The position numbers and the translations under genes are program-made. DNA of 64,000 nt, taken from positions 372,001 to 436,000 of the forward strand of contig NZ_BJZQ01000001.1 of assembly GCF_007992115.1 (NCBI RefSeq), given 5' to 3'. The notes under the pieces were generated by a model. It did not search any database, was not told where the DNA came from, and saw nothing but the letters and a program-made list of their open reading frames with translations. This document shows, piece after piece, positions 9,230-61,445 of this stretch; the stretch's first letter is position 1, and every line of letters starts with the position of its first letter. Source of the stretch: Aeromicrobium flavum. Lineage in GTDB: Bacteria > Actinomycetota > Actinomycetes > Propionibacteriales > Nocardioidaceae.

Positions 9230-10594
9230 ATGGCTGACGGACTGTTCGATCTTCCGGATCAGGCGCCGTCGGACCCGCGGCGCGACTCGAGTGGCTCCCT
9301 TGCGGGCAACGTCCACTCGAGCGCGCCGCTGGCCGTGCGGATGCGGCCGCAGTCGCTCGACGAGCTGGTGGGCCAGCAGCACCTGCTGGCGCCCGGGTCG
9401 CCGCTGCGCCGGATGATCGAGGGCAACGCGCCCCTGACGGTTCTGCTCTGGGGGCCTCCGGGCACCGGCAAGACGACGCTGGCCAGCCTGATCAGCCGCC
9501 AGACCGACCGCCGCTTCGTGGAGGTGTCGGCCGTCAGCGCCGGCGTCAAGGAGGTCCGCGAGGTCATCGCCGGTGCTCGCCAGGCGCTGTCGCGCGGCAA
9601 AGAGACCGTCCTGTTCGTGGACGAGGTCCACCGCTTCAGCAAGGCCCAGCAGGACGCCCTGCTGCCCGGTGTCGAGAACCGCTGGGTCAGCCTCGTCGCG
9701 GCCACCACCGAGAACCCGCACTTCAGCGTGATCTCGCCGCTGCTGAGCCGCTCGCTGCTGCTGACCCTGCAGCCGCTCACCGACGACGACATCGCCGTCC
9801 TGCTCGACCGGGCCGTCGCCGACGAGCGCGGCTTCGACGGTGAGCTCAAGATCGCCGACGACGCCCGCGACCACCTCGTGCGGCTGGCGGGTGGCGACGG
9901 CAGGCGCGGCCTGACGTACCTGGAGGCCGCTGCCGGTGCCGCGACCGATCAGGGCCACGACGAGATCACGCTCGACGACGCGGCGCTCGCGGTCGACAAG
10001 GCCGCCGTGCGGTACGACCGCCAGGGCGACCAGCACTACGACGTCACGAGCGCGTTCATCAAGTCGATCCGCGGGTCCGACGTGGACGCCGCGCTGCACT
10101 ACCTGGCCCGGATGATCGAGGCGGGGGAGGACCCGCGCTTCATCGCCCGTCGGCTGATGATCCATGCCAGTGAGGACATCGGCATGGCCGACCCCACTGC
10201 GCTGCCGATGGCCACGGCGACCGCGCAGGCCGTCGCGATGATCGGCTTTCCCGAGGCGCGCATCCCGCTCGCCCAGGCGGTCATCCACCTCGCGACGGCG
10301 CCGAAGTCCAACGCCGTCATCCGCGCGATCGACGCGGCGATGGCCGACGTCCGGGCCGGCAAGGTCGGCGCCGTGCCGCCCGCACTGCGTGACGCGCACT
10401 ACTCCGGGGCCAAGAAGCTGGGCCACGGTCACGACTACGTGTACCCCCACGACGACACCCGTGGCGTGGTGCCGCAGCAGTACGCGCCGGACGACGTGGA
10501 CGGGGCGGACTACTACCGGCCCGGGCCCCATGGGGCCGAAGGGGCCATCGCCGAGCGACTCGCCCGAATCCGCGCGATCGTCCGAGACCGGTAA
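9230..10594 (+). CDS. rarA: Replication-associated recombination protein A (RarA/MgsA AAA+ ATPase)
   Basis: A 454-residue clamp-loader-like AAA+ ATPase that acts at stalled replication forks. Walker A is GPPGTGKTT at residues 75-83, Walker B is LFVDEVHRF, sensor 1 lies in [10 protein letters not shown], and an arginine finger follows in [10 protein letters not shown]. The C-terminal tetramerisation region contains the family signature [10 protein letters not shown]-like stretch (here [11 protein letters not shown]) and [11 protein letters not shown]. Length and order are normal. The gene has its own leaderless-type start at ATG 9230. Its TAA stop forms part of the next gene's -10 hexamer. Confidence 0.95.
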
Positions 10595-10597
10595 TCT
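10592..10597 (+). promoter_or_regulatory. Probable -10 hexamer nested on the rarA stop codon
   Basis: TAATCT uses the rarA TAA stop as its first three bases and ends 6 nt before ATG 10604. A transcript starting there would be leaderless for the following gene and could extend into alaS. Confidence 0.5.
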
Positions 10598-10603
10598 CGT
10601 TCC

Positions 10604-11086
10604 ATGTCCGTGCAGCTGCTGATCCTCGTCGCCACGGCCGTGCTGGCCGTCGTGGCGGTCGGCGCTGCCGTGATCGCCGTGCTCGCCCTCCGCCGACTGC
10701 GGGCGCTGCACCACGCCGCGCCCCCGGAGCCCGCTGAGTTGCACGTTGCGCCCGTCGAGGACGGCGTGTCGCTGGTGGAACGTGAAACTCAGCGGGAAGT
10801 GCAGCCGCCCGCCGAGGTCGTCCGCGTCGTCGAGGGTCGCGTGATCGTGCAGCCCACCCACGACCAGTTGGTGGCGGCCTCGATGACGCGCCCCAGCGTG
10901 CGGCTGAGCATCTTCGCCGCGGGCCTGGCCCATGCGCTGCGCCCCGAGAGCCGCGACCGGATCACCGCGCTGATGCGCCGCGAGTACCGCGCCCGCAAGC
11001 GGGCCCGCCAGCGCGCTGCCAAGGCCGCCGCCCGGGCCACGAACGACCCGCCGCCCGCGTCGGGCCGCGGCTGGGTGGGTTCGTGA
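10604..11086 (+). CDS. Single-pass membrane protein upstream of alaS (DUF948-position protein)
   Basis: A 160-residue protein with one N-terminal membrane helix (about residues 4-28), a proline- and glutamate-rich linker, a conserved-looking middle ([19 protein letters not shown]), and a very basic Arg/Lys/Ala tail (about 125-150). In other actinobacteria this place before alaS holds a DUF948-type membrane protein. The topology matches, but I cannot confirm sequence homology. The basic tail is probably cytoplasmic and may contact nucleic acid or membrane lipid. Its stop overlaps the next gene (GTGA). Confidence 0.65.
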
Positions 11087-43647: not shown

Positions 43648-44921
43648 GCACCGTCATCAAGGGCGCCCGGATCCTGGGCGGCGAAGCCACCGACCTCCTC
43701 ATCGAGGACGGGGTCATCATGCAGATCGGCGCCGACCTCACCGGCGACGAGACCGTCGATGCCACCGGCCTGATCGCGCTGCCCGGCCTGGTCGACCTGC
43801 ACACCCACCTGCGCGAGCCGGGCCGCGAGGACGCCGAGACCGTCCTCACCGGCACGCAGGCCGCCGCCAGGGGCGGGTTCACCTGCGTCTTCGCCATGGC
43901 CAACACCGAGCCCGTCGCCGACACCGCCGGCGTCGTCGAGCAGGTCTGGCGCCTCGGCCGCGAGCACGGCTACGCCGACGTGCAGCCCATCGGAGCGGTC
44001 ACCGTCGGACTGGCGGGGGAGCGGCTCGCCGAGCTCGGCGCCATGGCCGACTCGGCCGCCCAGGTGCGCGTGTTCAGTGACGACGGCAAGTGCGTCAGCG
44101 ACGCCGTCCTCATGCGCCGCGCTCTGGAGTACGTGAAGGCCTTCGACGGCGTGATCGCCCAGCACGCGCAGGAGCCGCGCCTCACCGAGGGCGCCCAGAT
44201 GAACGAGGGCCCGCTCTCGGGCGAGCTCGGCCTCACCGGCTGGCCCGCCGTCGCCGAGGAGGCGATCATCGCCCGCGACGTCCTGCTCGCTGAGCACGTC
44301 GGCAGCCGCCTGCACGTGTGCCACCTGTCCACGCGGGGCTCGGTCGAGATCGTGCGCTGGGCCAAGAGTCGCGGCATCGACGTCACCGCCGAGGTCACGC
44401 CGCACCACCTGCTGCTCGACGACGAGCTGGTCCGCAGCTACGACCCGATCTACAAGGTCAACCCGCCGCTGCGCAGCAAGGACGACGTCCTCGCCGTCCG
44501 CGAGGGCCTGGCCGACGGCACGATCGACATCGTCGCCACCGACCACGCGCCGCACCCGATGGAGGACAAGGAGTGCGAGTGGCAGGCCGCGGCCTTCGGC
44601 ATGATCGGCCTCGAGACCGCGCTGTCGATCGTGCAGCAGACGATGGTCGACACCGGGGCCCTCACCTGGGAGCGCGTCGCCGAGGTCATGAGCGCCAACC
44701 CCGCCCGGATCGGCCGCGCCACCACCCACGGACGTCCGCTCGCGGTCGGCGAACCGGCCCACGTGGTGCTCTACGACCCGACCGCGAAGCGTACGATCGA
44801 GCCCGCCGACACGGCGAGCCTGTCGCGCAACACCCCCTATGCCGGAAGGGAACTGCCGGGCCGCGTGGTCGCGACGTTCCTGGCCGGCAAGCCCACCGTC
44901 CTGGAAGGAAAGCTGCAGTGA
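43644..44921 (+). CDS. pyrC: Dihydroorotase (type I)
   Basis: A 425-residue zinc amidohydrolase closing carbamoyl-aspartate to dihydroorotate. The metal-binding HTHLREPG motif is in [14 protein letters not shown]. Further ligands are the His in [14 protein letters not shown] and [11 protein letters not shown], and the Asp in [14 protein letters not shown], matching the large bacterial DHOase class. ATG 43644 overlaps the pyrB stop; a reading from further upstream runs through pyrB. The carA GTG overlaps its stop. Confidence 0.96.
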
Positions 44922-46025
44922 CGTTCACCCCCGCCATCCTCGTGCTCGAGGACGGACGCACCTTCCGCGGACGCTCCTACGGCGCCACCGGCACCACGGT
45001 CGCCGAGATCGTCTTCAACACCGGCATGACCGGCTACCAGGAGACGCTCACCGACCCGTCGTACCGCGGCCAGATCGTCGTGATGACGGCCCCGCACGTC
45101 GGCAACACCGGCGCCAACCCCGAGGACTTCGAGTCCGGCCGGGTCTGGGTCGACGGCTACGTGGTGCGCGACCCCGCCCGCCAGCGCTCCAACTGGCGCT
45201 CCGACCGCAGCCTCGACGACCTGCTCACCGAGCAGGGCGTCGTCGGCATCAGCGGCATCGACACCCGCGCCCTCACCCGCCACCTGCGCGAGCGCGGCTC
45301 CATGCGCGCCGCCATCAGCACCGAGGTCCTCGACCCCGAGGCGCTGCTCCAGCAGGTGCAGCAGGCGCCGAGCATGACCGGCTCGAACTACCTCGCCGAC
45401 GTCACCGTCGACGAGGCGCAAGTCGTGCCGGCCGAGGGCGAGAAGAAGTACACCGTCGTCGCGCTCGACCTCGGCATCAAGGGCATGACCCCCAAGCTGA
45501 TGGCCAAGCGCGGCATCGAGGTGCACGTCCTGCCCGCCACCTCCTCGCTGGAGGAGGTGCTCGCGCTCGACCCCGACGGCGTCTTCATGTCCAACGGCCC
45601 GGGCGACCCGGCCACCGCCGACCACCAGGTCGAGCTCGTCCAAGGCGTCCTCGAGCAGGGAACGCCGTACTTCGGCATCTGCCTGGGCAACCAGATCTTC
45701 GGGCGCGCGCTCGGCCGCGGCACCTACAAGCTCAAGTACGGGCACCGCGGGGTCAACCAGCCCGTGCAGGATCGCACCACCGGCAAGGTCGAGATCACCG
45801 CGCACAACCACGGGTTCGCCGTGGACGCGCCGCTCGACGAGGACTTCGAGACGCCCTACGGCCCGGCCCGGGTCACCCACGTGTGCCTGAACGACGACGT
45901 CGTCGAGGGCATCGCCCTGCTGGACCGCCCCGGGTTCAGCGTCCAGTACCACCCCGAGGCCGCTGCGGGTCCGCACGACGCCGGCTACCTCTTCGACCGC
46001 TTCACCGACCTCATGGAGGCTGCTC

Positions 46026-46042
<17 letters not shown>
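44918..46042 (+). CDS. carA: Carbamoyl-phosphate synthase small (glutaminase) subunit
   Basis: A 374-residue subunit that hydrolyses glutamine and channels ammonia to CarB. The N-terminal CarA-specific domain reads [20 protein letters not shown]. The class I glutamine amidotransferase triad has Cys255 in [11 protein letters not shown] and His/Glu in [13 protein letters not shown]. It begins at GTG 44918, overlapping the pyrC stop, and extends 17 bp into carB. Carbamoyl phosphate is shared with arginine synthesis, and no arg genes are in the window. Confidence 0.97.
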
Positions 46043-49336
<3,294 letters not shown>

Positions 49337-49340
<4 letters not shown>

Positions 49341-50158
49341 GCTTCGGCAGCCGCGCCCACGTGGCGATGCAGGCGTACGGTCCGCTGTGCGTCGGCATCG
49401 ACCCGCACTCCCACCTGCTGGAGCAGTGGGGGCTGGAGGACTCGATCGACGGGCTCGACCGGTTCGCGGCCACGTGCGTCGAGGCGTTCGCCGGCAAGGT
49501 GGCGTTCGTGAAGCCGCAGTCGGCGTTCTTCGAGCGGTTCGGCGCGGCCGGCGTCGCCATCCTGGAGCGCACGCTGCAGGACCTGCGGCACACCGGCACG
49601 CTGACGATCCTCGACGTCAAGCGTGGTGACATCGGCTCCACCGCCGGCGCGTACGCCGACGCCTACCTCGACGACGACGCCCCGATGGCGGCCGACGCGA
49701 TCACCGTCAGCCCGTACCTGGGCTTCGGCTCCCTGACGCCGTTCTTCGCGGCCGCCGAGAAGAACGACGCGGGCGTGTTCGTGCTGGCGTTCACCTCCAA
49801 CCCCGAGGCGATCCGGTTCCAGACCGCGACCGCCTCGTCAGGCATGTCGGTGGGTGACGAGGTGCTGGTCGAGCTCGGCCACGCCAACGAGGGCGCCGAC
49901 CCGATGGGCTCCTTCGGCGCCGTCATCGGTGCGACGGTCGCCCACCTCGACACCCAGCGCCTCGGCTTCAACGGCCCGATCCTGGTCCCCGGCTTCGGCG
50001 CCCAGGGCGGCACCGTCGACGACCTCCGCCGCCTGTTCGGCGACGTCACGGACCAGATCATCCCGTCCACCTCGCGCGACGTCCTCGCCAAGGGCCCGGA
50101 CGTGGCCACCCTCCGCGCCGCCGCGGCCGCCACCAACGACTCGTTGTCGCTGCTGTAG
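49337..50158 (+). CDS. pyrF: Orotidine 5'-phosphate decarboxylase (type 2)
   Basis: A 273-residue enzyme of the PyrF type 2 group that makes UMP. The catalytic Lys95 lies in [12 protein letters not shown], preceded by [13 protein letters not shown], and the C-terminal phosphate region is [16 protein letters not shown]. The start ATG 49337 overlaps the carB stop. It ends the operon, 9 bp from the convergent CHAT gene. pyrD and pyrE, needed for a full pathway, are elsewhere, as is usual in this group. Confidence 0.95.
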
Positions 50159-50167
50159 CGCTCAGCG

Positions 50168-52624
50168 TCACCAGCCGGCGCCGAAGCAGACGAACGAGGT
50201 CGGGCGGTCGGCGGTGGCCTCGGCCAGGGCGACGCCCGGGGGAGTGCCGGCGGCCATGAGCCGGTGCACGTCCTGCAGCACCTCGCAGGCCTCGTCGTCC
50301 GCGACGGCCGCGGGGGAGGCGATGACGCAGCGCGCACCGGCGTGCAACCACGCGTTGACCATGCCGAGCGACTCCTCGGCCCAGCGTTGCGTCGAGCGGC
50401 CCACCTCGCACGCCGACAGGATCACCACGTCGGGCACGTTCTTGAGCTGGTCGAGGTCGTACCCGAAGAGCGGCCCGTCGGCGAGCAGCACGGCCGAGAA
50501 CAACGGGTTCTCCGCCGCGTGGCGTCCGTGCGCCGAGATGTGCAGCAACGACGCCCCGTCGGCCGCCGCGAGCGTCGCGGCCACCGTCGCCTGACCGTCG
50601 GTGAGGCACGTCGAGCCGGGCCAGCGCGCCGACGACTGCTTGACCTCCTCGACGGCACGATCGACGTCGGGACCGGCGACGAAGGTGCCGGTGGTCGGGG
50701 TGGGCAGGCCGCGCGTCGCCAGCCACCGCGTCGCCGCCGACGCCACGGTGACGGGCCGGCCCACGAAGCCCGGCAGCATCGACCACGGGACGCCGGCGAG
50801 GATCCCGGAGTGGGTGAGCACCACGCGCCGGTCGCCCACCAGGGGAAGGACGGGCGCGACGAGGGCCGTGGCGACCTCGGCCAGGCGACGCCGGCGTCCC
50901 GCCAGGACCACGCGGCCGATCGCCTCGCCCAGCTCGCCGGCACTGACGTCGAGGTCGGCGCGCAGGCCCGCCATCAGGGCCACCGTCGGTGAGGAGTCCC
51001 CGAGGTCGACGACCGTCGGGCCGTCCTCGGTCACCACGAGCGCGTGCAGGCGCGACCGGCGGTCCCAGCCGTAGCTCACCAGCGCCGTGTCGCTGCCCAG
51101 CGCCGCACCCACCTCGTGCAGCTCGGCGACCCGTCGGACCTCGCCCGACCCGGTGCCGAGCCAGGCACGACGCCGCACGCGGTCGCGCAGCTCGGCGAGC
51201 CGTCTCGCCTCGGGTGAGCCGGCCTCGGGCTCGGTGACCGTCAGCCTGCGGATCTCGACGAGGTCGGCCGCCGCCGCCGGGTCCTCCGGCGGCCGCACCG
51301 GCACCACCCGCGTCGTGAGTGCCCGAGCACGCTCGGACCACTCGAAGACCAGCTCGGGCGAGCCGTCCTCGAGGGCGATCTGGATGCCGCGGGCGGCGAG
51401 GTCGCGCCCGTGGCCCACGAGCGACGTCATGAGGTCGAGGCTGCCGAACGAGGACTGCCAGTCGTGCAGGAGCCCGAGGCCGGCCTGCAGGTGTCGCAGC
51501 GCCTGCCGACGACGACCCGTCGCCAGGGAGAGCTCGGCCTTCGTGCGTCGCTCCAGCAGGCGCTCGGTGAGCGAGTCGCGCGGGTTGGTGCGGGCACGCT
51601 GCAGGCGGACCCGCGCGTCCTCGAGCCGGCCCAGGCGCACGGCCACCCTGGCCGCGTAGAGGTCGAGCAGCTGGGCCTCGTGCACCATCGACGACCCGCG
51701 CAGGGCGGCGGCGAGCTCCTCGGCGCGACCGAGCCACGCGGGGGTGCCGCCGCCCCCGATGGCCCTGGCGATCGCCTCGAGCGTGTCGGCACGCAGGGCC
51801 CAGCCGCTGTTGCCGTTGCGTCGCAGCCGGCGGGCGGCGCTGCGTGCCAGCACCCGGGACCGGTTCGGGTCGGTGAGCAGGACCGCGCGTCCCAGCACGA
51901 ACTCGCACTCGGCCTGCATGCGGGGCAGCCGCAAGGTGGAGAAGTTCGCGACCGCCCGCTCGAGCAGCCGGGTGCCCTCGGTGACCATGCCGGCCTTGAG
52001 CAGCACCTCCGCCCGGTCCTGCATGCCGATGGTGCGCACCTGGATGCCGGCGTCGGGCGACTCCCGCTCGGCCCGGTCCATCAGGCGCAGCGCCGTGACG
52101 AGGTCGCCGAGGGCCATGGCGACGTACCCGCGGTTGTGGTCGGCCGCGGCCGCGCCGGCGTCGTCGCCGGCAGCACGGAAGTCGCGCGCCGCGGCGTCGA
52201 AGTCGGTCTCGGCACGGGTGAGGTGGTTCTGCTCGAGCTGGGCGAAGCCACGGTTGAGCAGGACGTTGCCGCGTTCGGTGGTGCCGGGGTCGAGGGCGGG
52301 GATGGCCAGGTTGTAGAGGCCGATCACCTCGTCGAGGTCGCCGCCACGCGACAACAGGACGGCCAGCTGGCTGCGCACGATCGCCCGGGCCCGAGGAGAG
52401 GTGCCGGGGAGCCGCAGCGCCGCGGCGCACCGTTGCATGGCCTGCGCGCGGTCGCCCAGCTCGGCCTCCGCGTACGCCAGGCTCGCGCTGATCCGCGCGA
52501 CGAGGTCGGGCTCGTCAGCGCGCTCCAGCGCCGAGCCCAGCAGCCGTCGCGCCTGCCGGAAGTGACCCCGGTTGATCGCGGCGACGCCGTGCTCGTGCAG
52601 CGTGGGAGCGGCGGTCGGCGGCAC
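50168..52624 (-). CDS. TPR-CHAT caspase-like protease
   Basis: An 818-residue protein. Residues about 1-400 are tetratricopeptide-like helical repeats rich in Ala, Leu and Arg (for example FRQARRLLGSALERADEP). The C-terminal CHAT domain, a caspase-clan protease, has catalytic His699 in LLHISAHGRH and Cys739 in VVILSACEVG, both intact. No signal peptide or membrane helix is seen. It starts at GTG 52624, 3 bp after the S8 protease stop, and is last in the sigma–beta-domain–S8–CHAT operon. CHAT proteins act in bacterial conflict and regulated proteolysis; the substrate here is unknown, though the neighbouring proteins are candidates. Confidence 0.88.
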   Translation of the reverse strand: MPPTAAPTLHEHGVAAINRGHFRQARRLLGSALERADEPDLVARISASLAYAEAELGDRAQAMQRCAAALRLPGTSPRARAIVRSQLAVLLSRGGDLDEVIGLYNLAIPALDPGTTERGNVLLNRGFAQLEQNHLTRAETDFDAAARDFRAAGDDAGAAAADHNRGYVAMALGDLVTALRLMDRAERESPDAGIQVRTIGMQDRAEVLLKAGMVTEGTRLLERAVANFSTLRLPRMQAECEFVLGRAVLLTDPNRSRVLARSAARRLRRNGNSGWALRADTLEAIARAIGGGGTPAWLGRAEELAAALRGSSMVHEAQLLDLYAARVAVRLGRLEDARVRLQRARTNPRDSLTERLLERRTKAELSLATGRRRQALRHLQAGLGLLHDWQSSFGSLDLMTSLVGHGRDLAARGIQIALEDGSPELVFEWSERARALTTRVVPVRPPEDPAAAADLVEIRRLTVTEPEAGSPEARRLAELRDRVRRRAWLGTGSGEVRRVAELHEVGAALGSDTALVSYGWDRRSRLHALVVTEDGPTVVDLGDSSPTVALMAGLRADLDVSAGELGEAIGRVVLAGRRRRLAEVATALVAPVLPLVGDRRVVLTHSGILAGVPWSMLPGFVGRPVTVASAATRWLATRGLPTPTTGTFVAGPDVDRAVEEVKQSSARWPGSTCLTDGQATVAATLAAADGASLLHISAHGRHAAENPLFSAVLLADGPLFGYDLDQLKNVPDVVILSACEVGRSTQRWAEESLGMVNAWLHAGARCVIASPAAVADDEACEVLQDVHRLMAAGTPPGVALAEATADRPTSFVCFGAGW

Positions 52625-52627
52625 GGC

Positions 52628-54247
52628 TCACCCTGACGCGAGCAGGTCGGACACGACCTTCTGGGCCAGCCCGACCCGTGCCTTCCGGTCGTCCCCGGTC
52701 GTGAGGCCGGGCGCGAGCGCCTCGGCCAGCTCGGCCGCGAACACCGGCGCGGCGAACGACGACCCGCTCCAGATCGCGAACCCGCTGCGGTAGTCGTCGG
52801 GGTCGAAGGACTCACGCAGGCGGCCGTCGGCGGTGACGAGTCGCGCCGTCGGCTCGAGGCCCGTCTGGAACGCGGGGAACGTGCTGAGCAGCGCCGTGCC
52901 CCGGCGGTACACGCGGACCCACCGACCGGCGTTGGTGAACAACGCGTCCGTGACGCCGTTCGTGTTCAGCGCCCCCACCGAGACGATCGGGGCCGCCCCG
53001 GGATCGAGGGAGATGATCTGCCCGACGTCGTCGTGCGGGGTCCATGCGGCGGGGAACATGGGACGCGTCGTCGCGTCGTTCCCGGCCGAGCAGACCACGA
53101 TCGTGCCGGTGCGGCCGATCGCGGCGAGCATCTCGTAGAACGTCGGATCGAACTTCTGGTCGAGCGGCGTCTCGTGGTAGTAGCCGAACGACAGGTTGAG
53201 CACGTCCAGCGTGATGGCGTCCGTGCGCACGAGCACGGCGATCCGGGCGACCGCGGTCATGAGGTCGGACTCGGCCATGGTGCCGTCGGACTCCGCGACC
53301 CGCCACCACCACAGGTCGGCCTCGGGGCAGCCCTGGTGCAGGAGCCCCGCGATGAAGGTGCCGTGGCCCGAGGCCTCGTCGAGCATCCCGTCCAGGGGGC
53401 CTCCGACGTCACCGACGACCTCGGGCGCGGTGGCGGGATCCTTGAGTCCGATCGGCGTCGCCGGGCCCAGGTCCGTGCCGTCGTGGACGAAGTCGGGGGT
53501 GAGCCACGGGTGCGTGCCGCAGCCGGTGTCGATCATGCCGATGTGGGGCCGGCGCTCGCCGAGCACCTTCCCGCGGTGCGGCGGGCGACCGACGAACGAC
53601 ACCGGCTGGCGCCCGCCCGTGCCGGGATCGGCGTAGGCGTCGAGCAGGGCGCCGTTGCTGCGCGTGTGCGGGTTGGACCGGGTGTGGGGGTTCGAGCGCG
53701 TGTGCGGGTTGGAGCGCGTGTGCGGATTGGACCGGGTGTGCGGGTACAGCGTGAGGACGTGGTCGAGCCCGATGCCGAAGAGCAGGTCGGTGTTCGTCTT
53801 CTTGTCGGTCCGCGCCATGGCACGCGCCGTCTGCAGCAGCGACCAGGCGTCCGGCGGGCGCGCCCGGGCGTCGTCGCGCGGTGTGATGAGCACGCGCATC
53901 AGGCCCACGTCGCCCGTGGCCCACGGGTAGCGCCGTAGTCGTGACTCCCGCTCGTCGTCCTCGCTCGTGATCTGCACCCGGGGAAAGCTGGGATCCTCCT
54001 CCACTTCCCAGTGGAAGGTCTCGGCGGCGTCCTGCAGCAGCTTGAGCGCGGCGGCCGTGTCGATCAGCGTGGAGATCAGCAGCCGGGTCGCCAGGTAGGA
54101 GGTGGGGTTGGCGTCGGGGTCGGGGGAGGCGGCGGCCGTGTTGGGGTCGAGGAGCTTGCCCTCACGTTCGGCGACGGACTGGGGCCGGGTCCACGCGTCC
54201 TGCGCCTCCAGTCGGGGCGGCTTCCGTCCGGAATCCTGGGTGGCCAT
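52628..54247 (-). CDS. Subtilisin-like S8 serine protease with PHTRSN repeats
   Basis: A 539-residue protease of the subtilase family. The triad is intact: Asp240 in GMIDTGCG, His295 in SGHGTFIAG and Ser497 in GSSFAAP. No signal peptide is visible, so it is probably cytoplasmic, which is unusual for subtilases. The first 165 residues are a family-specific N-terminal region. Residues 169-198 are five consecutive copies of PHTRSN, forming a basic, flexible array just before the catalytic domain; it could be a processing or binding site. ATG 54247 follows a TGAGGA ribosome site. The gene lies 3 bp before the CHAT gene and 9 bp after the small beta protein. Confidence 0.9.
   Translation of the reverse strand: MATQDSGRKPPRLEAQDAWTRPQSVAEREGKLLDPNTAAASPDPDANPTSYLATRLLISTLIDTAAALKLLQDAAETFHWEVEEDPSFPRVQITSEDDERESRLRRYPWATGDVGLMRVLITPRDDARARPPDAWSLLQTARAMARTDKKTNTDLLFGIGLDHVLTLYPHTRSNPHTRSNPHTRSNPHTRSNPHTRSNGALLDAYADPGTGGRQPVSFVGRPPHRGKVLGERRPHIGMIDTGCGTHPWLTPDFVHDGTDLGPATPIGLKDPATAPEVVGDVGGPLDGMLDEASGHGTFIAGLLHQGCPEADLWWWRVAESDGTMAESDLMTAVARIAVLVRTDAITLDVLNLSFGYYHETPLDQKFDPTFYEMLAAIGRTGTIVVCSAGNDATTRPMFPAAWTPHDDVGQIISLDPGAAPIVSVGALNTNGVTDALFTNAGRWVRVYRRGTALLSTFPAFQTGLEPTARLVTADGRLRESFDPDDYRSGFAIWSGSSFAAPVFAAELAEALAPGLTTGDDRKARVGLAQKVVSDLLASG
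53654..53743 (-). repeat. Five 18-bp tandem units coding for (PHTRSN)x5
   Basis: Five units of 18 bases sit end to end inside the S8 protease gene. Each encodes Pro-His-Thr-Arg-Ser-Asn. The units differ at synonymous positions (Thr ACC/ACG, Arg CGG/CGC, Ser TCC/TCG/AGC), so the peptide is kept while the DNA has drifted. Unit number could vary by recombination. Confidence 0.97.
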
Positions 54248-54256
54248 CGGTGGTCC

Positions 54257-54703
54257 TCAGATCTCGAAGGTGGGGGTGGCGAGGTCGTCGTGGTCGGCGA
54301 CCTGGAACCAGATGCGGACGAGCCCGGCCGGCACGGAGTCGAACTCGAACCGGCCCACGGTCAGGTCGGCCGTCACGGAGTCGTCGTCGTGCGTCAGCCG
54401 TACGCTGCCGCTCTCACCGGGGGTGATCCAGCCGTCGAGGCGGCGCGTGCCGGGGGCGGGCCCGTCGCTGACGCGCACCAGCACGGACACGTCGTCGTAC
54501 GCGAACTCGATGGTGAGGGGGCCCGAGCCGCGGGTGCCGGCCAGCTCGGTGCTGCGGCTGAGCAGGCTCAGCAGGGCGTACTCGGTGTCGAGGTCCTCGG
54601 CCGCGACGGCCGCGATCATGGCGTCGGTGAGGTGGGGCGGCGCCGGGTCGATCGCCCGGTACATCGCCTGCAGGTCGTCGAAGATCGGTTCGCGCTCGGT
54701 CAT
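54257..54703 (-). CDS. Small protein with beta-sandwich C-terminus, sigma-operon partner
   Basis: A 148-residue soluble protein. The N-terminal 55 residues are helical and acidic (FDDLQAMYRAIDPAPPHL, then AMIAAVAAEDLDTEYALLS), and the rest is beta-rich (TIEFAYDDVSVLVRVSDG and FEFDSVPAGLVRIWFQV). The layout resembles proteins annotated as carboxypeptidase-regulatory-like that sit beside ECF sigma factors in actinobacteria, and the helical part could bind the sigma factor. The zinc-binding HxxxCxxC of ZAS anti-sigmas is absent. ATG 54703 overlaps the sigma stop, and the S8 gene begins 9 bp after its stop. Confidence 0.7.
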   Translation of the reverse strand: MTEREPIFDDLQAMYRAIDPAPPHLTDAMIAAVAAEDLDTEYALLSLLSRSTELAGTRGSGPLTIEFAYDDVSVLVRVSDGPAPGTRRLDGWITPGESGSVRLTHDDDSVTADLTVGRFEFDSVPAGLVRIWFQVADHDDLATPTFEI

Positions 54704-55308
54704 GATGCGGCCCCCTCGCCGGAGATGACGGACTTGAGCTTCTCGAGGCAGCGGCGGCGCGTCGGTCCGATGCTGCCCACGGGCATGCCCAGGTCCTCGG
54801 AGATGTGGTGGTAGTCCGGTCGTTCGTCGAAGGCGATGACGCGCAGGAGGCGCTGGCACCGTTCGTTGAGCTGGGCGACCGCCGCCCAGAGCCGGTGGTT
54901 CTCGTCGGCCTCGACCGCCTCGGACTCGGCGGCGCGCGTCGTGGGCAGGGCGGGGGCCAGGACCTCGTCGTCGGTGGCGTCCTCGCGGCGGTTGCGCGAG
55001 GCCACGCGCCACGCCTGGCGGCGGGCGGTGATGATCAGCCACGAGGACACGGCGCGAGGGTTCTCGACCGCGTCGGCCTTGCGCACGAGGGTCAGCCAGG
55101 TGAACTGGATGACGTCCTCGCACACGTCCTCGTCGAGTCGGTACGCGCGGACCACGTGCCACAGCACCGGGGTCATCTCGCGCACCAGGTCGTCGATCGC
55201 CCCACGGTCCCCGTCACGCCAGCGTGCGAAGGCCTCGCCGGAGCGGATCCACGGGCCGTCGTCGGATTCTGCTGGTTCGTGTGACTTGCTGTCGGTCACG
55301 GAGTTCAT
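54700..55308 (-). CDS. ECF-type RNA polymerase sigma factor of the protease operon
   Basis: A 202-residue ECF sigma factor. Region 2 appears as MTPVLWHVVRAYRLDEDVCE, DVIQFTWLTLVRKADAV and SSWLIITARRQAWR. Region 4 is LNERCQRLLRVIAF followed by YHHISEDLGMPVGSIGPTR, the DNA-binding helix-turn-helix. It begins about 95 bp from the divergent lipoprotein gene. I choose ATG 55308; a GTG at 55317 is also in frame, and neither has a strong ribosome site. It is the first of four overlapping or tightly spaced genes, so it probably controls its own operon. Confidence 0.88.
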   Translation of the reverse strand: MNSVTDSKSHEPAESDDGPWIRSGEAFARWRDGDRGAIDDLVREMTPVLWHVVRAYRLDEDVCEDVIQFTWLTLVRKADAVENPRAVSSWLIITARRQAWRVASRNRREDATDDEVLAPALPTTRAAESEAVEADENHRLWAAVAQLNERCQRLLRVIAFDERPDYHHISEDLGMPVGSIGPTRRRCLEKLKSVISGEGAAS

Positions 55309-55390
55309 TGTGCGCACATCCGGGACGAGGCAGGAAGGGGTAACCCTGATACACGCCGACGGGCGTCGCCGGGGGAGAGGCCCGCGCTAG

Positions 55391-55396
55391 TAGCCT
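55391..55396 (+). promoter_or_regulatory. Probable -10 hexamer (TAGCCT), leaderless
   Basis: TAGCCT ends 6 nt before GTG 55403 with no Shine-Dalgarno between. Confidence 0.5.
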
Positions 55397-55402
55397 GTCC
55401 GG

Positions 55403-55837
55403 GTGCGACGACCCACCCTGCTGCTGCTCTCGGCGGTCCTCGGCCTCGGCACGGTGGCGGGTTGCTCGGGCGGCGGACCGTACTGCGACGCGGTCGACGA
55501 CGCCAAGGAGCCGCTCACCAGCTTCGGCCGCCAGACCGACGCCGCGTACGCCGAGTACGCGCAGGTCACCGCCGACATCGCCGAGGTCGCACCCGAGTCG
55601 GTCCGGAAGGACTGGCGCACCATCGCGAAGGCGACCAAGAAGGTCGTGATCGTCCACCGCAAGGCCGGCTTCCGCCTCCAGGACATGAAGGACGAGGTGA
55701 AGGTGAACGCGCTGTCCCAGCAGGACATCGACCGCATCACCGCCGCCCACGAGGCCTTCAACGACACCCGGACCCAGCGCCTTGCCGTCGTCGAGCACGT
55801 GGACGACGAGTGCGGCATCGACCTGTCCGAGAAGTGA
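55403..55837 (+). CDS. Small secreted lipoprotein (144 aa)
   Basis: A 144-residue lipoprotein: the signal sequence LLLLSAVLGLGTVAGC ends at a clear lipobox (VAGC, Cys21). The mature part is helical, with KDWRTIAKATKKVVIVHRK and two further cysteines (PYCDAVDD and ECGIDLSE) that may form a disulfide. It is a common actinobacterial type of unknown role. It is divergent from the sigma factor operon and lies 10 bp before mihF. Confidence 0.78.
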   Translation: MRRPTLLLLSAVLGLGTVAGCSGGGPYCDAVDDAKEPLTSFGRQTDAAYAEYAQVTADIAEVAPESVRKDWRTIAKATKKVVIVHRKAGFRLQDMKDEVKVNALSQQDIDRITAAHEAFNDTRTQRLAVVEHVDDECGIDLSEK

Positions 55838-55847
55838 GGAGTTGACC

Positions 55848-56168
55848 GTGGCCCTGCCCCGACTGACCGACGAACAGCGCCGAGAGGCGCTGGCGAAGGC
55901 GGCCGTCGCCCGCCAGGTGCGCGCCGAGGTGAAGAACCGGCTGCGCCACTCCGGCGCGAGCGTCGCCGAGGTGCTCAAGGAGGCCCAGAGCAACGAGGCG
56001 ATCGCCAAGATCAAGGTCCTCGACCTGCTGCAGAGCATCCCCGGCATCGGCAAGCTGACCGCCCAGCAGATCATGGACGACCTGAACATCGCCCAGAGCC
56101 GCCGCCTGCGCGGCTTGGGCAGCAACCAGGCCAAGGGCCTCATCGCTGAAATTGCACGCCGTGGCTGA
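55848..56168 (+). CDS. mihF: Integration host factor, actinobacterial type (MihF)
   Basis: A 106-residue nucleoid-associated protein of the mycobacterial IHF type, unrelated to E. coli IHF. It starts [18 protein letters not shown] and contains the helix-hairpin-helix [19 protein letters not shown] that binds DNA, with basic helices ([15 protein letters not shown]) before it. The GTG start at 55848 has a GAGGAG ribosome site. In-frame codons upstream belong to the lipoprotein region and are not used. The stop overlaps gmk by 8 nt, the conserved mihF–gmk–rpoZ order. Confidence 0.95.
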
Positions 56169-56742
56169 GCGCGGCCGACTGATCGTCCTCGCCGGGCCCA
56201 CGGCGGTCGGCAAGGGCACGGTGGCGGCGTGGGTCCGCGAGCACCACCCCGAGATCTGGATGTCGGTGTCGGCCACCACGCGGCCCCCGCGGCCGGGCGA
56301 GATCGAGGGCAAGCACTACCACTTCGTGTCCGCCGACGAGTTCGACCGGCTGATCGCCACGGACGGCCTGCTGGAGTGGGCCACCGTCCACGGCGTCAAC
56401 CGTTACGGCACGCCCCGCGCGGCCGTGGAGGAGAAGCTGGCCGAGGGCGAGTCGGTCCTGCTGGAGATCGACCTGCAGGGCGCGCGCCAGGTGCGCCGGG
56501 CCCTGCCGGAGGCGTTCCTGGTCTTCCTCGCGCCGCCCAGCTGGGACGAGCTGGTCAACCGCCTCGTGGGTCGCGGCACCGAGACCGAGGCCGAGCGCGA
56601 GCGCCGCCTGGCCACGGCGCGCGAGGAGCTGGCGGCCGTGTCGGAGTTCGACACCACCATCGTCAACACCGAAGTCGAGGATGCGGGGCGCGAGTTGGTA
56701 GACTTGTTCAGATCCCGCCCGTCGGCCGACCCTGCCGGGTGA
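56161..56742 (+). CDS. gmk: Guanylate kinase
   Basis: A 193-residue enzyme that phosphorylates GMP to GDP. The P-loop is [10 protein letters not shown], the GMP-binding motif is [20 protein letters not shown], and [13 protein letters not shown] is the lid-hinge region. It is linked functionally to rel, since it supplies GDP/GTP and is a known (p)ppGpp target in several bacteria. I use GTG 56161, which overlaps the mihF stop; a TTG at 56152 would add three residues. Neither has a strong ribosome site, so translation may be coupled. Confidence 0.96.
56699..56704 (+). promoter_or_regulatory. Possible internal -10 hexamer (TAGACT) for rpoZ
   Basis: TAGACT lies in the 3' part of gmk, 63 nt before the rpoZ start. 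An AT-rich TTGTTCAGATCC follows. This would let rpoZ and coaBC be transcribed apart from gmk. No clear -35 is seen. Confidence 0.35.
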
Positions 56743-56767
56743 CCCCCACAACTTCTGGAGATTCTGA

Positions 56768-57067
56768 GTGTCCACGACACGTTCTGCTGCCGAAGGCATC
56801 ACCAACCCGCCGATCGACGACCTGCTCGAGAAGGCGGACTCCAAGTACAAGCTCGTTCTCTACAGCGCCAAGCGCGCCCGCCAGATCAACGCGTACTACT
56901 CGCAGCTCGGCGAGGGCCTGCTCGAGTACGTCGGCCCGCTGCTCGAGACCGAGGTCCAGGAGAAGCCGCTGTCGATCGCGCTACGCGAGATCAACGCCGG
57001 CCTGCTGACCGTCGAGGACATCGATCCCGACGCCCCCGTCGCCCCGGCGACCACCGACGAGGCCTGA
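56768..57067 (+). CDS. rpoZ: RNA polymerase omega subunit
   Basis: A 99-residue subunit that helps RNA polymerase assembly and, in E. coli, contributes to ppGpp binding. It contains [19 protein letters not shown] and [17 protein letters not shown], the MARKER-type core, and [17 protein letters not shown]. It begins at GTG 56768 after a TGGAG ribosome site. The position between gmk and coaBC is the standard one. Confidence 0.95.
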
Positions 57068-57077
57068 GCCTGCCGCG

Positions 57078-58280
57078 ATGAGCCGCATCGTCCTCGGCGT
57101 CACCGGAGGCGTCGCCGCCTACAAGGCGGCGCTGCTGCTTCGGCTGTTCACCGAGGCCGGGCACGACGTCCGCGTCGTCCCCACCGAGTCCGCGCTGGAG
57201 TTCGTCGGCGCGCCCACGTGGGAGGCGCTCTCGGGGCATCCGGTCCAGACCGGCGTGTTCGAGAACGTCCCCGAGGTGCCGCACGTCAAGCTCGGCCAGA
57301 CCGCCGACCTCGTCGTCGTCGCTCCGGCCACCGCCAACACGCTCGCGCGAGCGGCCCACGGCCTGGCCGACGACCTCCTGACGAACACGCTGCTCACGGC
57401 TCGCTGTCCCGTCGTCATGGCCCCGGCCATGCACACCGAGATGTGGGAGCACCCCGCCACGGTCGCCAACGTCGCGACGCTGCGTGAGCGGGGTGTCCTG
57501 GTCATCGAGCCCGACTCAGGCCGCCTCACCGGCGCCGACACGGGCCCCGGCCGCCTGCCCGATCCCGAGGCGATCCACGCGATCTGTCTCCAGGTCCTGC
57601 AGGGCCGCCCGCGCGATCTCGCCGGTCGCCACGTCGTCGTCTCCGCCGGCGGCACCCGCGAGTTCCTCGATCCCGTGCGGTTCCTGGGCAACCGGTCGTC
57701 CGGCCGCCAGGGGATCGCGCTCGCCGAGGCCGCGCTGGCCCGCGGTGCCACGGTCACCCTCGTGGCAGCCAACGTCTCGATCGACGTCCCGGCCGGTGCC
57801 GAGGTCGTCCGCGTCGTCACCACGGCCGAGCTGCGCGAGGCGATGCTGAAGCAGGCCGCGTCGGCCGACGCCGTCGTCATGGCCGCCGCCCCCGCCGACT
57901 TCCGTCCCGTCTCCCGGGCGGACGCCAAGATCAAGAAGCAGCCCGACGGGGTCGCCCCCTCGATCGAGCTGACCGAGAACCCCGACATCCTCGTCGAGCT
58001 GGTCCGCAGCCGCTCCGGCTCCTCGCCGGTCATCGTCGGCTTCGCCGCAGAGACCGGCGACGCGAACGGTTCGGTGCTCGACCACGCCCGCGCCAAGATG
58101 GCCCGCAAGGGCTGCGACCTGCTGGTCGTCAACGACGTCGGCTCCGAGAAGGTCTTCGGGCAGGCCGACAACGAGGTCACGATCCTCAGCTCCGACGGAT
58201 CCGAGCATCCGATCGCCCGTGCGGCCAAGGCCGAGATCGCCCATGCGATCTGGGACGCCGTCGTCCACCGAGTGAAATGA
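57078..58280 (+). CDS. coaBC: Phosphopantothenoylcysteine decarboxylase / phosphopantothenate-cysteine ligase
   Basis: A 400-residue bifunctional enzyme of coenzyme A synthesis. The CoaC decarboxylase half (about 1-185) starts [18 protein letters not shown] and has [20 protein letters not shown] and [12 protein letters not shown] with FMN and substrate residues. The CoaB ligase half has [19 protein letters not shown] and the lysine-rich [16 protein letters not shown]. It lies 10 bp after rpoZ and 77 bp before metK. Confidence 0.95.
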
Positions 58281-58305
58281 ACCCCGGGCGTCACCGTGCG
58301 CCCAC

Positions 58306-58311
58306 TACAGT
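58306..58311 (+). promoter_or_regulatory. Possible metK -10 hexamer (TACAGT)
   Basis: TACAGT lies 46 nt before the metK GTG, leaving a short 5' leader with an AGAGAGGT ribosome site. No SAM riboswitch features are seen in this leader. Confidence 0.4.
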
Positions 58312-58357
58312 CGACACGACGTCCGCGACGTCGTCACCCACAGCCAGAGAGGTAACC

Positions 58358-59545
<1,188 letters not shown>

Positions 59546-59549
59546 CCGA

Positions 59550-61445
59550 GTGAGTCCCGCACAGCGGCGTGTCGCGAGGATCCTCGTCGACACGCCGCTG
59601 TCGCATCTGGACCGCCCGTTCGACTACGCGATCCCCGACGACCTCGCCGAGGCCGTCGTCCCGGGGTGCCGGGTCAAGGTGCGGTTCGCCGGGCGCCTCG
59701 TCGACGGCTACGTGCTCGACCTCGCGTCGGACACCGAGCACGAGGGCCGGCTCGCGCCGATCGCCAAGGTCGTGTCGTCCGAGCCCGTCCTGGTGCCCGA
59801 GGTGGCCCTGCTGGCCCGCCAGGTGGCCGACCGGTACGCCGGCACGGTCGGCGACGTGCTGCGACTGGCGATCCCGCCGCGGCACGCCCGCGCCGAGGCC
59901 CATCCCGGCGGTGCCGAGCCCCCCGAGCCGCCCGCCATCGGCGAGGCGTCCTGGCACGCCTACGTCCACGGTGCCGCGTTCGTCCGGGCGCTGGCGGCGC
60001 GGGAGTCGCCCCGCGCCGTCCTGAACACCCTGCCCCGGCACGAGCCCGAGCGGGCCGTCGCCGAGGCCGTCTCCGCCACCGTGCGCTCCGGCCGCACCGC
60101 GGTCGTGTGCGTGCCCGACGTGCGCGACGCCGCCCGCTGGGACGCCGTCTTCACCGAGGCGCTCGGCCCCGGTGTCCACGTCACGCTCACCGCGGCCGAC
60201 AAGCCCGCGGCGCGCTACCGCAACTTCCTCAAGGCCTCGCGTGGCGAGGTGCGGGTCGTCCTGGGCACGCGCGGCGCGGCCTACGCGCCGCTGCGCGATC
60301 TGGGGCTCGTCGTCGTCTGGGACGACGGCGACGACCTGCATGCCGAGCCGCGCGCCCCGTACCCGCACACCCGCGAGGTGCTGCTCACCCGTGCCGTGGA
60401 GACCGGCGCCGGCGTGCTGATCGCCGGGCACGCCCGCACGTCGGAGGCGCAGTCGCTCGTCGAGCAGGGCTGGTGCGCCGAGATCGTGGCCGACCAGCCC
60501 GCGCGCCGCCGCGAGTGGCCGGTCGTCGACGTCACCGACGGCACCGAGCACGGTGCCGCGCCCGCGCGCCTGCCCGCGCCCGTCTTCGAGGCCGTGCGCC
60601 GGGCCGAGGGTCCGGTGCTCGTCCAGGTGCCGCGCCGGGGCTACCGCACCTCGCTGGTCTGCGACAGCTGCCGCACGCCCGCCCAGTGCCCGGCCTGTGC
60701 CGGCCCGCTGGTCCAGCACCGCGCCGACGCGCCGCTGGTGTGCCGCTGGTGCGCCACGACAGTGGCCGCGTGGCGCTGCGGCGAGTGCAGCGGCACCCGG
60801 CTGCGCGCTCCGGTCGTGGGCCAGCTGCGCACCGCCGAGGAGTTCGCGGCGGCGTTCCCCGGGCGCGAGGTCGTCACGTCCGGCGGCGACACCGTGCTCG
60901 ACCACCTCGACCGGGACGACGCCGTGCTGGTCCTGGCCACGCCGGGCGCCGAGCCGTCCGTCACGGGCGGCTACGCGGTCGTCGTGCTGCTCGACACCTG
61001 GCTGATGCTGGCGCGCGACGACGTGCGGGTCTTCGAGGAGTCGCACCGGCGCTGGTTCAACGCGCTCGCCCTCGCCGGCTACGGCGCCCGCGCGGTGGCG
61101 GTCGGCGACACCGGCATGCTGCAGGGTCTCGTCCGCGCCGATCCGGCGGGCGTGGCCGCGCGCGAGCTGGCCGACCGAGCCCAGACCCACCTGCCGCCGG
61201 TCGGGCGCCTGGCCACGGTCGACGGGCCTGAGGACGTCATCACCGGGCTTGCGGCCCGCACCTGGCCGCCCTTCGTCGACGTCCTCGGCCCCGTCCCGGT
61301 CGAGCCCGGACGCGATCGGCTCATCCTGCGCGTGCCGCGGCGTGAGGGACTGGCCCTGGCCCGCGTGCTGAAGGCGGTCGCGGCCGAGCGCAGTGCGGCC
61401 AAGGAACCGCCGGTGCGGATCCAGATCGACCCCGTCGCGTTCTGA
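59550..61445 (+). CDS. priA: PriA-like primosomal protein without helicase motifs
   Basis: A 631-residue protein with the PriA layout but degenerate ATPase motifs. The N-terminal 3'-DNA-binding domain begins RILVDTPLSHLDRPFDYAIP. The expected Walker A GxTGSGKTE is absent, and the DEAH box position reads WDDGDDLHAEP. The zinc-binding cysteines are kept (CDSCRTPAQCPACAG, then CRWCATTVAAWRCGECSG). Actinobacterial PriA are known to lack a detectable helicase domain, so it probably acts as a structural replication-restart factor. GTG 59550 is 4 bp after metK, with fmt 31 bp downstream. Confidence 0.93.
   Translation: MSPAQRRVARILVDTPLSHLDRPFDYAIPDDLAEAVVPGCRVKVRFAGRLVDGYVLDLASDTEHEGRLAPIAKVVSSEPVLVPEVALLARQVADRYAGTVGDVLRLAIPPRHARAEAHPGGAEPPEPPAIGEASWHAYVHGAAFVRALAARESPRAVLNTLPRHEPERAVAEAVSATVRSGRTAVVCVPDVRDAARWDAVFTEALGPGVHVTLTAADKPAARYRNFLKASRGEVRVVLGTRGAAYAPLRDLGLVVVWDDGDDLHAEPRAPYPHTREVLLTRAVETGAGVLIAGHARTSEAQSLVEQGWCAEIVADQPARRREWPVVDVTDGTEHGAAPARLPAPVFEAVRRAEGPVLVQVPRRGYRTSLVCDSCRTPAQCPACAGPLVQHRADAPLVCRWCATTVAAWRCGECSGTRLRAPVVGQLRTAEEFAAAFPGREVVTSGGDTVLDHLDRDDAVLVLATPGAEPSVTGGYAVVVLLDTWLMLARDDVRVFEESHRRWFNALALAGYGARAVAVGDTGMLQGLVRADPAGVAARELADRAQTHLPPVGRLATVDGPEDVITGLAARTWPPFVDVLGPVPVEPGRDRLILRVPRREGLALARVLKAVAAERSAAKEPPVRIQIDPVAF

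Follow-up and report, generated by a model that had tools for sequence, protein, structure and literature searches.

Four co-directional genes on the minus strand, at 50168-55308 of a 64,000-nucleotide stretch of the Aeromicrobium flavum genome (contig NZ_BJZQ01000001.1; the whole stretch is called the window below), encode an extracytoplasmic function (ECF) sigma factor, a protein of 148 amino acids, an S8 subtilase and a TPR-CHAT protease. The gene arrangement itself is not new, being already described as the context of the ECF54 group in the account given of that group in PMC8999054. What is added here is a GTATCA promoter, predicted at the head of the operon, together with an array of peptide repeats in the subtilase whose unit is specific to the species; neither the promoter upstream of the sigma gene nor the fivefold PHTRSN repeat in the S8 gene figured in the first-pass annotation, which had been made from this DNA alone. 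By comparison of the upstream regions of homologous operons, the sigma factor very probably autoregulates its operon through a predicted GTATCA-N16/17-CTC promoter. That the genes together form an ECF sigma switch, belonging to the ECF54 context, which is cytoplasmic, self-contained and gated by proteases is, as a whole model, something we consider evenly balanced between right and wrong. No literature on the array, or on experiments with an operon of this kind, was found in a search outside which most subscription papers fell.

Recurrence and make-up of the four-gene set

Such operons are common among the actinobacteria. A search with the S8 protein matched 12 of 58 relatives (E<=0.001); among 394 genomes of the class an S8 profile found a subtilase in 85 (E<=1e-20), and among 391 of the order a second S8 profile reached E<=1e-60 in 88. 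A first set of 53 S8 loci was made up of 13 from the protein search (the repeat-like match G047 having been dropped) and 40 from the class profile, namely the close matches not already taken and 20 weaker ones, some being skipped; a second set comprised 60 loci among the places listed by the order-level search. All four genes are present in 47/53 and 56/60 of these, that is in 103 of the 113 loci picked by S8 similarity, and two more genus-mates, found via the small protein, also carry all four. At the other ten loci the sigma gene and/or the small or CHAT gene is not in the stretch examined, some of these loci lying at a contig edge. Wherever both occur (47/47 and 56/56, or 103/103), the small gene lies next to the sigma gene on the same strand, while the S8 gene moves; so strict a neighbourhood is what would be expected of a sigma/anti-sigma pair. 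The order sigma-small-S8-CHAT is seen in 17/53 and 34/60 loci and the order S8-sigma-small-CHAT in 17/53 and 22/60, the rest of the first set having mostly divergent layouts; an odd order listed for one locus (L079) is an artefact of a CHAT start set too far upstream. The first-pass annotation had asked whether the same four genes recur in the same order and had held that a lack of co-occurrence would speak against its interpretation. The set is indeed widely conserved in actinobacteria, and it is the order that varies.

Both proteases keep their active sites. Asp240, His295, Asn390 and Ser497 of the subtilase are aligned in all S8 proteins of both sets (53/53 and 60/60), and His699 and Cys739 of the CHAT protease are kept in 49 of 52 first-set copies, the three gaps being copies ended by a contig edge. 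In the second set His699 is found in 56/60 and Cys739 in 57/60, the gaps being three fragments and, for His699, a copy of 600 amino acids. The active sites are invariant in untruncated copies except for this one CHAT gap, and the earlier claim that the catalytic residues of both enzymes are complete is upheld by alignment across the homologs. A hydropathy scan found neither a membrane-like segment nor a signal peptide in the four proteins of the window, in keeping with the earlier description of the subtilase as cytoplasmic-looking. The best PDB match of the S8 profile is the intracellular serine protease 7xr8, with 2wv7 and 2x8j also among the best. Inhibitor_I9, the prodomain family of subtilisin precursors, has no match in 27 S8 members, and the seven PDB matches of the N-terminal profile include no subtilisin; the beta-alpha-beta reading of this domain was judged by eye. 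One sigma gene of the collection, in G006, lies in two reading frames (L018 10072-11052) and is intact in the close relative G281; it is either a pseudogene or a sequence error.

The small protein is best characterised through its homologs, of which 26/48 match CarboxypepD_reg at E<=1 (best 2.5e-05), matches that are weak singly and consistent as a family; the window protein by itself has no Pfam match, and its N-terminal helices come from a single-sequence model of low confidence. CarboxypepD_reg is a regulatory-like domain which is, to our knowledge, not catalytic, and a 'peptidase' label for the small protein is therefore misleading.

Because the homologs of the small protein match this domain, we tie the operon to the ECF54 context. 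The ECF54 account in a 2022 review (PMC8999054) describes conserved neighbours with carboxypeptidase, subtilase and CHAT domains and no anti-sigma gene, and by the same account the group, from Actinobacteria, goes back to Huang 2015 and Casas-Pastor 2021. Subtilase and CHAT genes stand beside the sigma gene here, and the counterpart of the 'carboxypeptidase' is the third protein with its CarboxypepD_reg match. The likeness is one of gene neighbourhood; the repeat array and the promoter find no mention in the review's account of ECF54.

The parallel drawn earlier between TPR-CHAT/ECF-sigma pairs and type III-E CRISPR systems is borne out by what PMC10028731 says of the type III-E CASP system, in which the TPR-CHAT protein Csx29 cleaves the sigma inhibitor Csx30 and the locus of CASP-sigma itself contains motifs of this sigma factor. 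The operon resembles it in having a TPR-CHAT protease with a His/Cys pair beside an ECF sigma factor, motifs in its own locus and a candidate inhibitor within the operon, and differs from it in the added S8 protease and apparently in having no recognised Csx30. No CRISPR-like array was found in 44000-60000 and no cas gene, Cas7-11 included, among the nine genes flanking the operon, the rest of the genome not having been searched; to this extent the earlier remark that no CRISPR genes are present here stands. We liken the operon to Craspase by hypothesis and do not regard it as a member of that system. The subtilase shares with intracellular subtilisins, which are among the best PDB matches of its profile, its S8 fold, an intact triad and the want of a signal peptide, but has in addition a 165-residue N-terminal domain, the repeat array and a sigma factor encoded alongside. 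A caspase-like protease in an operon with an ECF sigma factor, and with a TPR gene, is also a feature of the EACC2 systems, as these are described in Kaur et al. 2021 (PMC8195603); by that description EACC2 and TRADD-N domains mark these systems.

A promoter motif at the operon head

Five genus-mates share GTATCAG and CTCGTC upstream of the operon; within each of two further groups, GTATCAG or GTATCA is common to the members. In the first set, counting the 150 nucleotides before a gene or its first 30 nucleotides, GTATCA is found at 22/50 sigma genes, 4/53 S8 genes, 0/48 small genes and 0/52 CHAT genes, the background being 0.008 per counting window. The full motif GTATCA-N16/17-CTC was examined in the second set, where it precedes the sigma gene in 26 of the 34 complete sigma-first loci and no other gene there, and precedes the S8 gene in 13 of the 22 S8-first loci and the sigma gene in one of them. 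The head gene is thus preceded by the motif in 39/56 complete loci, 16/56 being without it, and the motif stands before sigma or S8 in 43 of all 60 loci; a scan of 1.21 Mb on both strands gave 79 matches in all, these 43 included, which corresponds to 0.018 per 280-nucleotide window. Since the motif moves with whichever gene heads the operon, the sigma factor would appear to drive its own operon. This is the strongest evidence for autoregulation, which we take to be a well-supported prediction.

Genome-wide, each of two patterns built on the motif has three matches in the A. flavum genome, a reversed-pattern control having two; one match is the operon and one lies at an unlinked gene for an FMP-type heme-binding protein. 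In the genomes of five genus-mates the two patterns have 3-7 and 2-5 matches per genome, and the reversed controls 0-2. The heme-binding gene (G000:C2:193861-194871, L278, with homologs L279-L283) belongs to family NF040572 (E 6.6e-89) and its product has no Pfam match. It is found in 6/49 genomes of the genus, all six among the seven operon carriers, and the carrier without a match is an 88%-complete draft. GTATCA-N16/17-CTCGT lies upstream of all six genus copies. In four of the genomes the region follows directly on the stop codon of another gene, in two it is different, and similarity begins at GGTATCA; the leader downstream of the motif is also conserved. Across the order the family is above cut-off in 10/391 genomes, nine of them with a close S8. 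These observations are good, though not independent, evidence for the gene as a candidate unlinked target of the sigma factor.

A weak lead to a further target is an Exo_endo_phos_3 (endonuclease/exonuclease/phosphatase) nuclease gene (G000:C5:57421-58410; homologs in G006, G281 and G447), which occurs in 4/49 genus genomes, all operon carriers. A GTATCAG-type site precedes two of the four copies; of the other two, one has a degenerate site and one has none. A further pattern site, common to five genus-mates, is part of a terminator-like hairpin and was rejected as a sigma target. This site (L129, ~1501-1545) consists of a short leader open reading frame and the hairpin before a conserved gene, an attenuator-like arrangement with no Rfam match.

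The repeated peptide of the subtilase

Of 87 close S8 proteins, 74 carry an exact tandem repeat that follows the N-terminal domain, with its GLDHVL-like end, and precedes the catalytic domain, and such repeats are also present in the S8 proteins of both extra genus-mates; among 26 distant S8 proteins no array was found at that position. Nearly all of the arrays (72/74) have at least three copies, the number ranging from 2 to 11 across species, and the period is six in 68, seven in five and eight in one. The units are diverse: 64 period-six arrays with proline have 53 different units, and within the genus alone we find PHTRSN, PLTRGN, PFTRGA and PVTRSN. Of the 55 arrays with a single proline in the unit, 49 have Y/F/L/V at position 2, 53 have G/S/T at position 5 and 35 have N/H at position 6.

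The copies of an array are identical as protein and scrambled at their synonymous sites. Inter-copy codon identity over the 74 arrays is 0.626, against 0.614 expected from the codon usage of each gene itself (Wilcoxon p=0.68; Met and Trp were excluded, as was any residue for which the rest of the gene has under five codons), 1679 of 4386 codon pairs differing between copies. Beside the arrays there are only 13 near-copies with one or two changes, as against 347 exact copies, and so the identity of the copies is not an artefact of having picked exact arrays. Between G006 and G281 the four-fold codons differ at 18/40 sites in the array and at 73/318 elsewhere (Fisher p=0.006). With the protein identical and the synonymous sites randomised, selection seems to hold every copy of an array to one peptide, and that peptide varies by species. 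This poses an unusual evolutionary problem, in that strict copy identity is kept without homogenisation of the DNA and the unit is changed wholesale between species.

The position of the array, directly after the N-terminal domain of a protease, suggests that it may act in maturation, inhibition or docking. Cleavage after Arg/Lys within the array was considered, and 14 of the 21 arrays first collected contain such a residue; in the larger set many units are without one, and a rule of a basic P1 was therefore dropped. Nor did any column of the CHAT protein convincingly track the repeat unit. In a mutual-information screen over 54 species, roughly corrected for phylogeny and excluding three units whose phase was ambiguous and systems in which a partner was missing or short, S8 columns were slightly raised (p=1.5e-4). 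Most of these are in the catalytic domain, and some of the top columns lie near the edge of the array. A tentative reading, which we think may well be wrong, is that the peptide, repeated 3-11 times, serves as a species-specific 'password', which a partner (the S8 protein itself or the CHAT protease) would have to read repeatedly before it docks on or cleaves the zymogen. It would follow, with the same tentativeness, that array and reader co-evolve as the whole unit changes between species, making activation private to a lineage. A match rejected as an S8 relative, in G047, is a run of the hexapeptide NPYDRD in an unrelated long protein (L023, ~10574-10813), superficially like the S8 arrays.

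The proposed switch, its alternatives and its genomic setting

In the model that we propose the small protein probably binds and inhibits the sigma factor encoded by the neighbouring gene, and the TPR-CHAT protease probably senses a cue via its TPR region and cuts the S8 zymogen, the small protein or both. The freed sigma factor would transcribe its own operon from the GTATCA-N16/17-CTC promoter, a step well supported by the sequence, with a positive feedback that yields more sigma and more of both proteases; in this genus it would also switch on the unlinked heme-binding gene, as the conserved motif supports. The subtilase may be kept inactive by its N-terminal domain, the repeated peptide linker may serve to release or recruit it, and the two proteases would execute or end the response. 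We infer a proteolytic cascade in which CHAT relieves the inhibition of sigma, sigma amplifies the proteases and the array links the two enzymes. Of the similar interpretation given in the first-pass annotation, the conserved set, the soluble proteins, the intact proteases and the type III-E parallel hold up; a defence island at this place does not. If the model is true, these operons are membrane-free, CRISPR-free, Craspase-like switches, in which a caspase-like protease gates a sigma factor that amplifies two proteases. The operon lends itself to testing: its promoter is defined, one of its products is a candidate inhibitor, an unlinked gene is a candidate target, and there are two active sites.

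A number of observations weigh against such a switch. Neither the small protein nor its homologs match any anti-sigma family, and single-sequence AlphaFold models, with pLDDT confidence scores of 45.3 and 32.5, are too poor to use. At 5/113 loci, L020 and L080 among them, S8 and CHAT genes lie side by side and neither a sigma nor a small gene was found in the vicinity; these pairs are possibly a reduced, sigma-free form. The exact motif is missing before sigma and S8 in 17/60 loci and 36 of the 79 matches fall elsewhere. The co-occurrence of heme-binding gene and operon is not independent evidence, as the carriers are one close group, and four heme-binding relatives outside the genus, three of them with S8, have no GTATCA within 1.5 kb.

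The section on ECF54 in PMC8999054 also puts forward a mechanism of opposite sign, and this too counts against the switch: the proteases would degrade sigma to hold it off, and there would be no anti-sigma factor. On such a reading the small beta-domain protein would be an adaptor or substrate handler. We think this explanation rather unlikely. It agrees with the lack of an anti-sigma family match, and proteases co-transcribed with sigma would equally give a negative feedback; but the link of the small gene to sigma, kept through all 103 loci, is stricter than that of the proteases, and where the review speaks of a carboxypeptidase domain the homologs match CarboxypepD_reg instead. An abortive-infection or programmed-death module, in which a phage or stress cue would act through CHAT on S8 to bring about cell death or arrest by general proteolysis, with sigma as amplifier only, appears to us unlikely. 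The pairing of a caspase-like protease with a subtilase, the predicted positive feedback, the patchy presence in the genus (7/49) and the five loci with S8 and CHAT genes only are what such a module might show, whereas the nine flanking genes tested include no defence gene, no PADLOC family is significant and the insertion point between housekeeping genes is the same in the genus. As to the array, it could be a flexible spacer and its repeats the debris of replication slippage with no specific role, as would suit the range in copy number and the general tendency of low-complexity linkers to repeat. Recent slippage should, however, leave DNA copies alike, and copies identical in protein differ in codons as by random choice; near-copies, moreover, are few beside the exact ones, and this explanation is in our view very improbable.

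Within the genus the small protein is present in 7/49 genomes. In six of these seven carriers the operon lies between pyrF and a gene for a small predicted lipoprotein (next to mIHF and gmk), and on the contig of the seventh the lipoprotein side only is visible; in the four operon-less genomes examined the pyrF-side and lipoprotein genes are adjacent (4/4). Of the nine flanking genes of the window eight have housekeeping Pfam matches, which we take to be carA, carB, pyrF, mIHF, gmk, rpoZ, coaBC and metK, and the lipoprotein gene has none. We therefore regard the operon as accessory and placed at a housekeeping site. CarB is 94-97% identical to that of the window in six carriers (the window included) and 84-86% in four operon-less genomes, so that the carriers look like one clade. 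A setting in a defence island is not supported for this window, on the housekeeping flanks and on the absence of any significant defence model in PADLOC-DB 2.0.0, whose sole match is BovA (17.5 bits, E 2.9e-4) for CHAT. The lipoprotein gene (55403-55837) is divergent from the operon, belongs to no Pfam family and also occupies this site in genomes without the operon.

The features of the operon are collected in Table 1. The coordinates, gene calls and tight spacing given in the first-pass annotation are right: sigma and small genes overlap by 4 nucleotides, and gaps of 9 and 3 nucleotides separate the small gene from S8 and S8 from TPR-CHAT. A GTG at 55317 is a possible alternative to the sigma start at ATG 55308, and the CHAT domain spans residues 580-804 of its protein.

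Table 1. Features of the four-gene operon, in coordinates of the window
Feature	Position	Strand	Basis or remark
Predicted sigma-dependent promoter, GTATCAG-N16-CTCGTC	55324..55352	-	GTATCA 44 nucleotides before sigma ATG
ECF sigma factor, 202 amino acids	54700..55308	-	Pfam Sigma70_r2, E 4.6e-07; NCBIfam sigma70-ECF, 9.7e-18
Small soluble protein, 148 amino acids	54257..54703	-	Proposed sigma inhibitor; beta domain CarboxypepD_reg-like
S8 subtilase, 539 amino acids	52628..54247	-	Pfam Peptidase_S8, E 3e-13; triad conserved
S8 N-terminal domain, residues 1-165, ending in GLDHVL	53753..54247	-	Alignment; prodomain-like by position only
Tandem repeat (PHTRSN)x5 of S8, between N-terminal and catalytic domains	53654..53743	-	
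TPR-CHAT protease, 818 amino acids, His699/Cys739	50168..52624	-	Pfam CHAT, E 5.4e-21, and TPR matches

A phage or plasmid origin of the set was considered and rejected: viral contigs gave 13 loci with matches to S8 only, and none of these, scanned with profiles for all four genes, showed a sigma, small or CHAT gene. A contig labelled 'Bacteriophage sp.', unverified and derived from human faeces (MT838002.1, 1-7478, L116), carries S8, sigma, small and CHAT genes in that order and is probably a misnamed bacterial contig. The same four genes are found in Nonomuraea (NZ_LT559118.1, 5023590-5040444, L115), on an 11.85-Mb record which is filed as a plasmid and, to judge from its size, is likely a chromosome.

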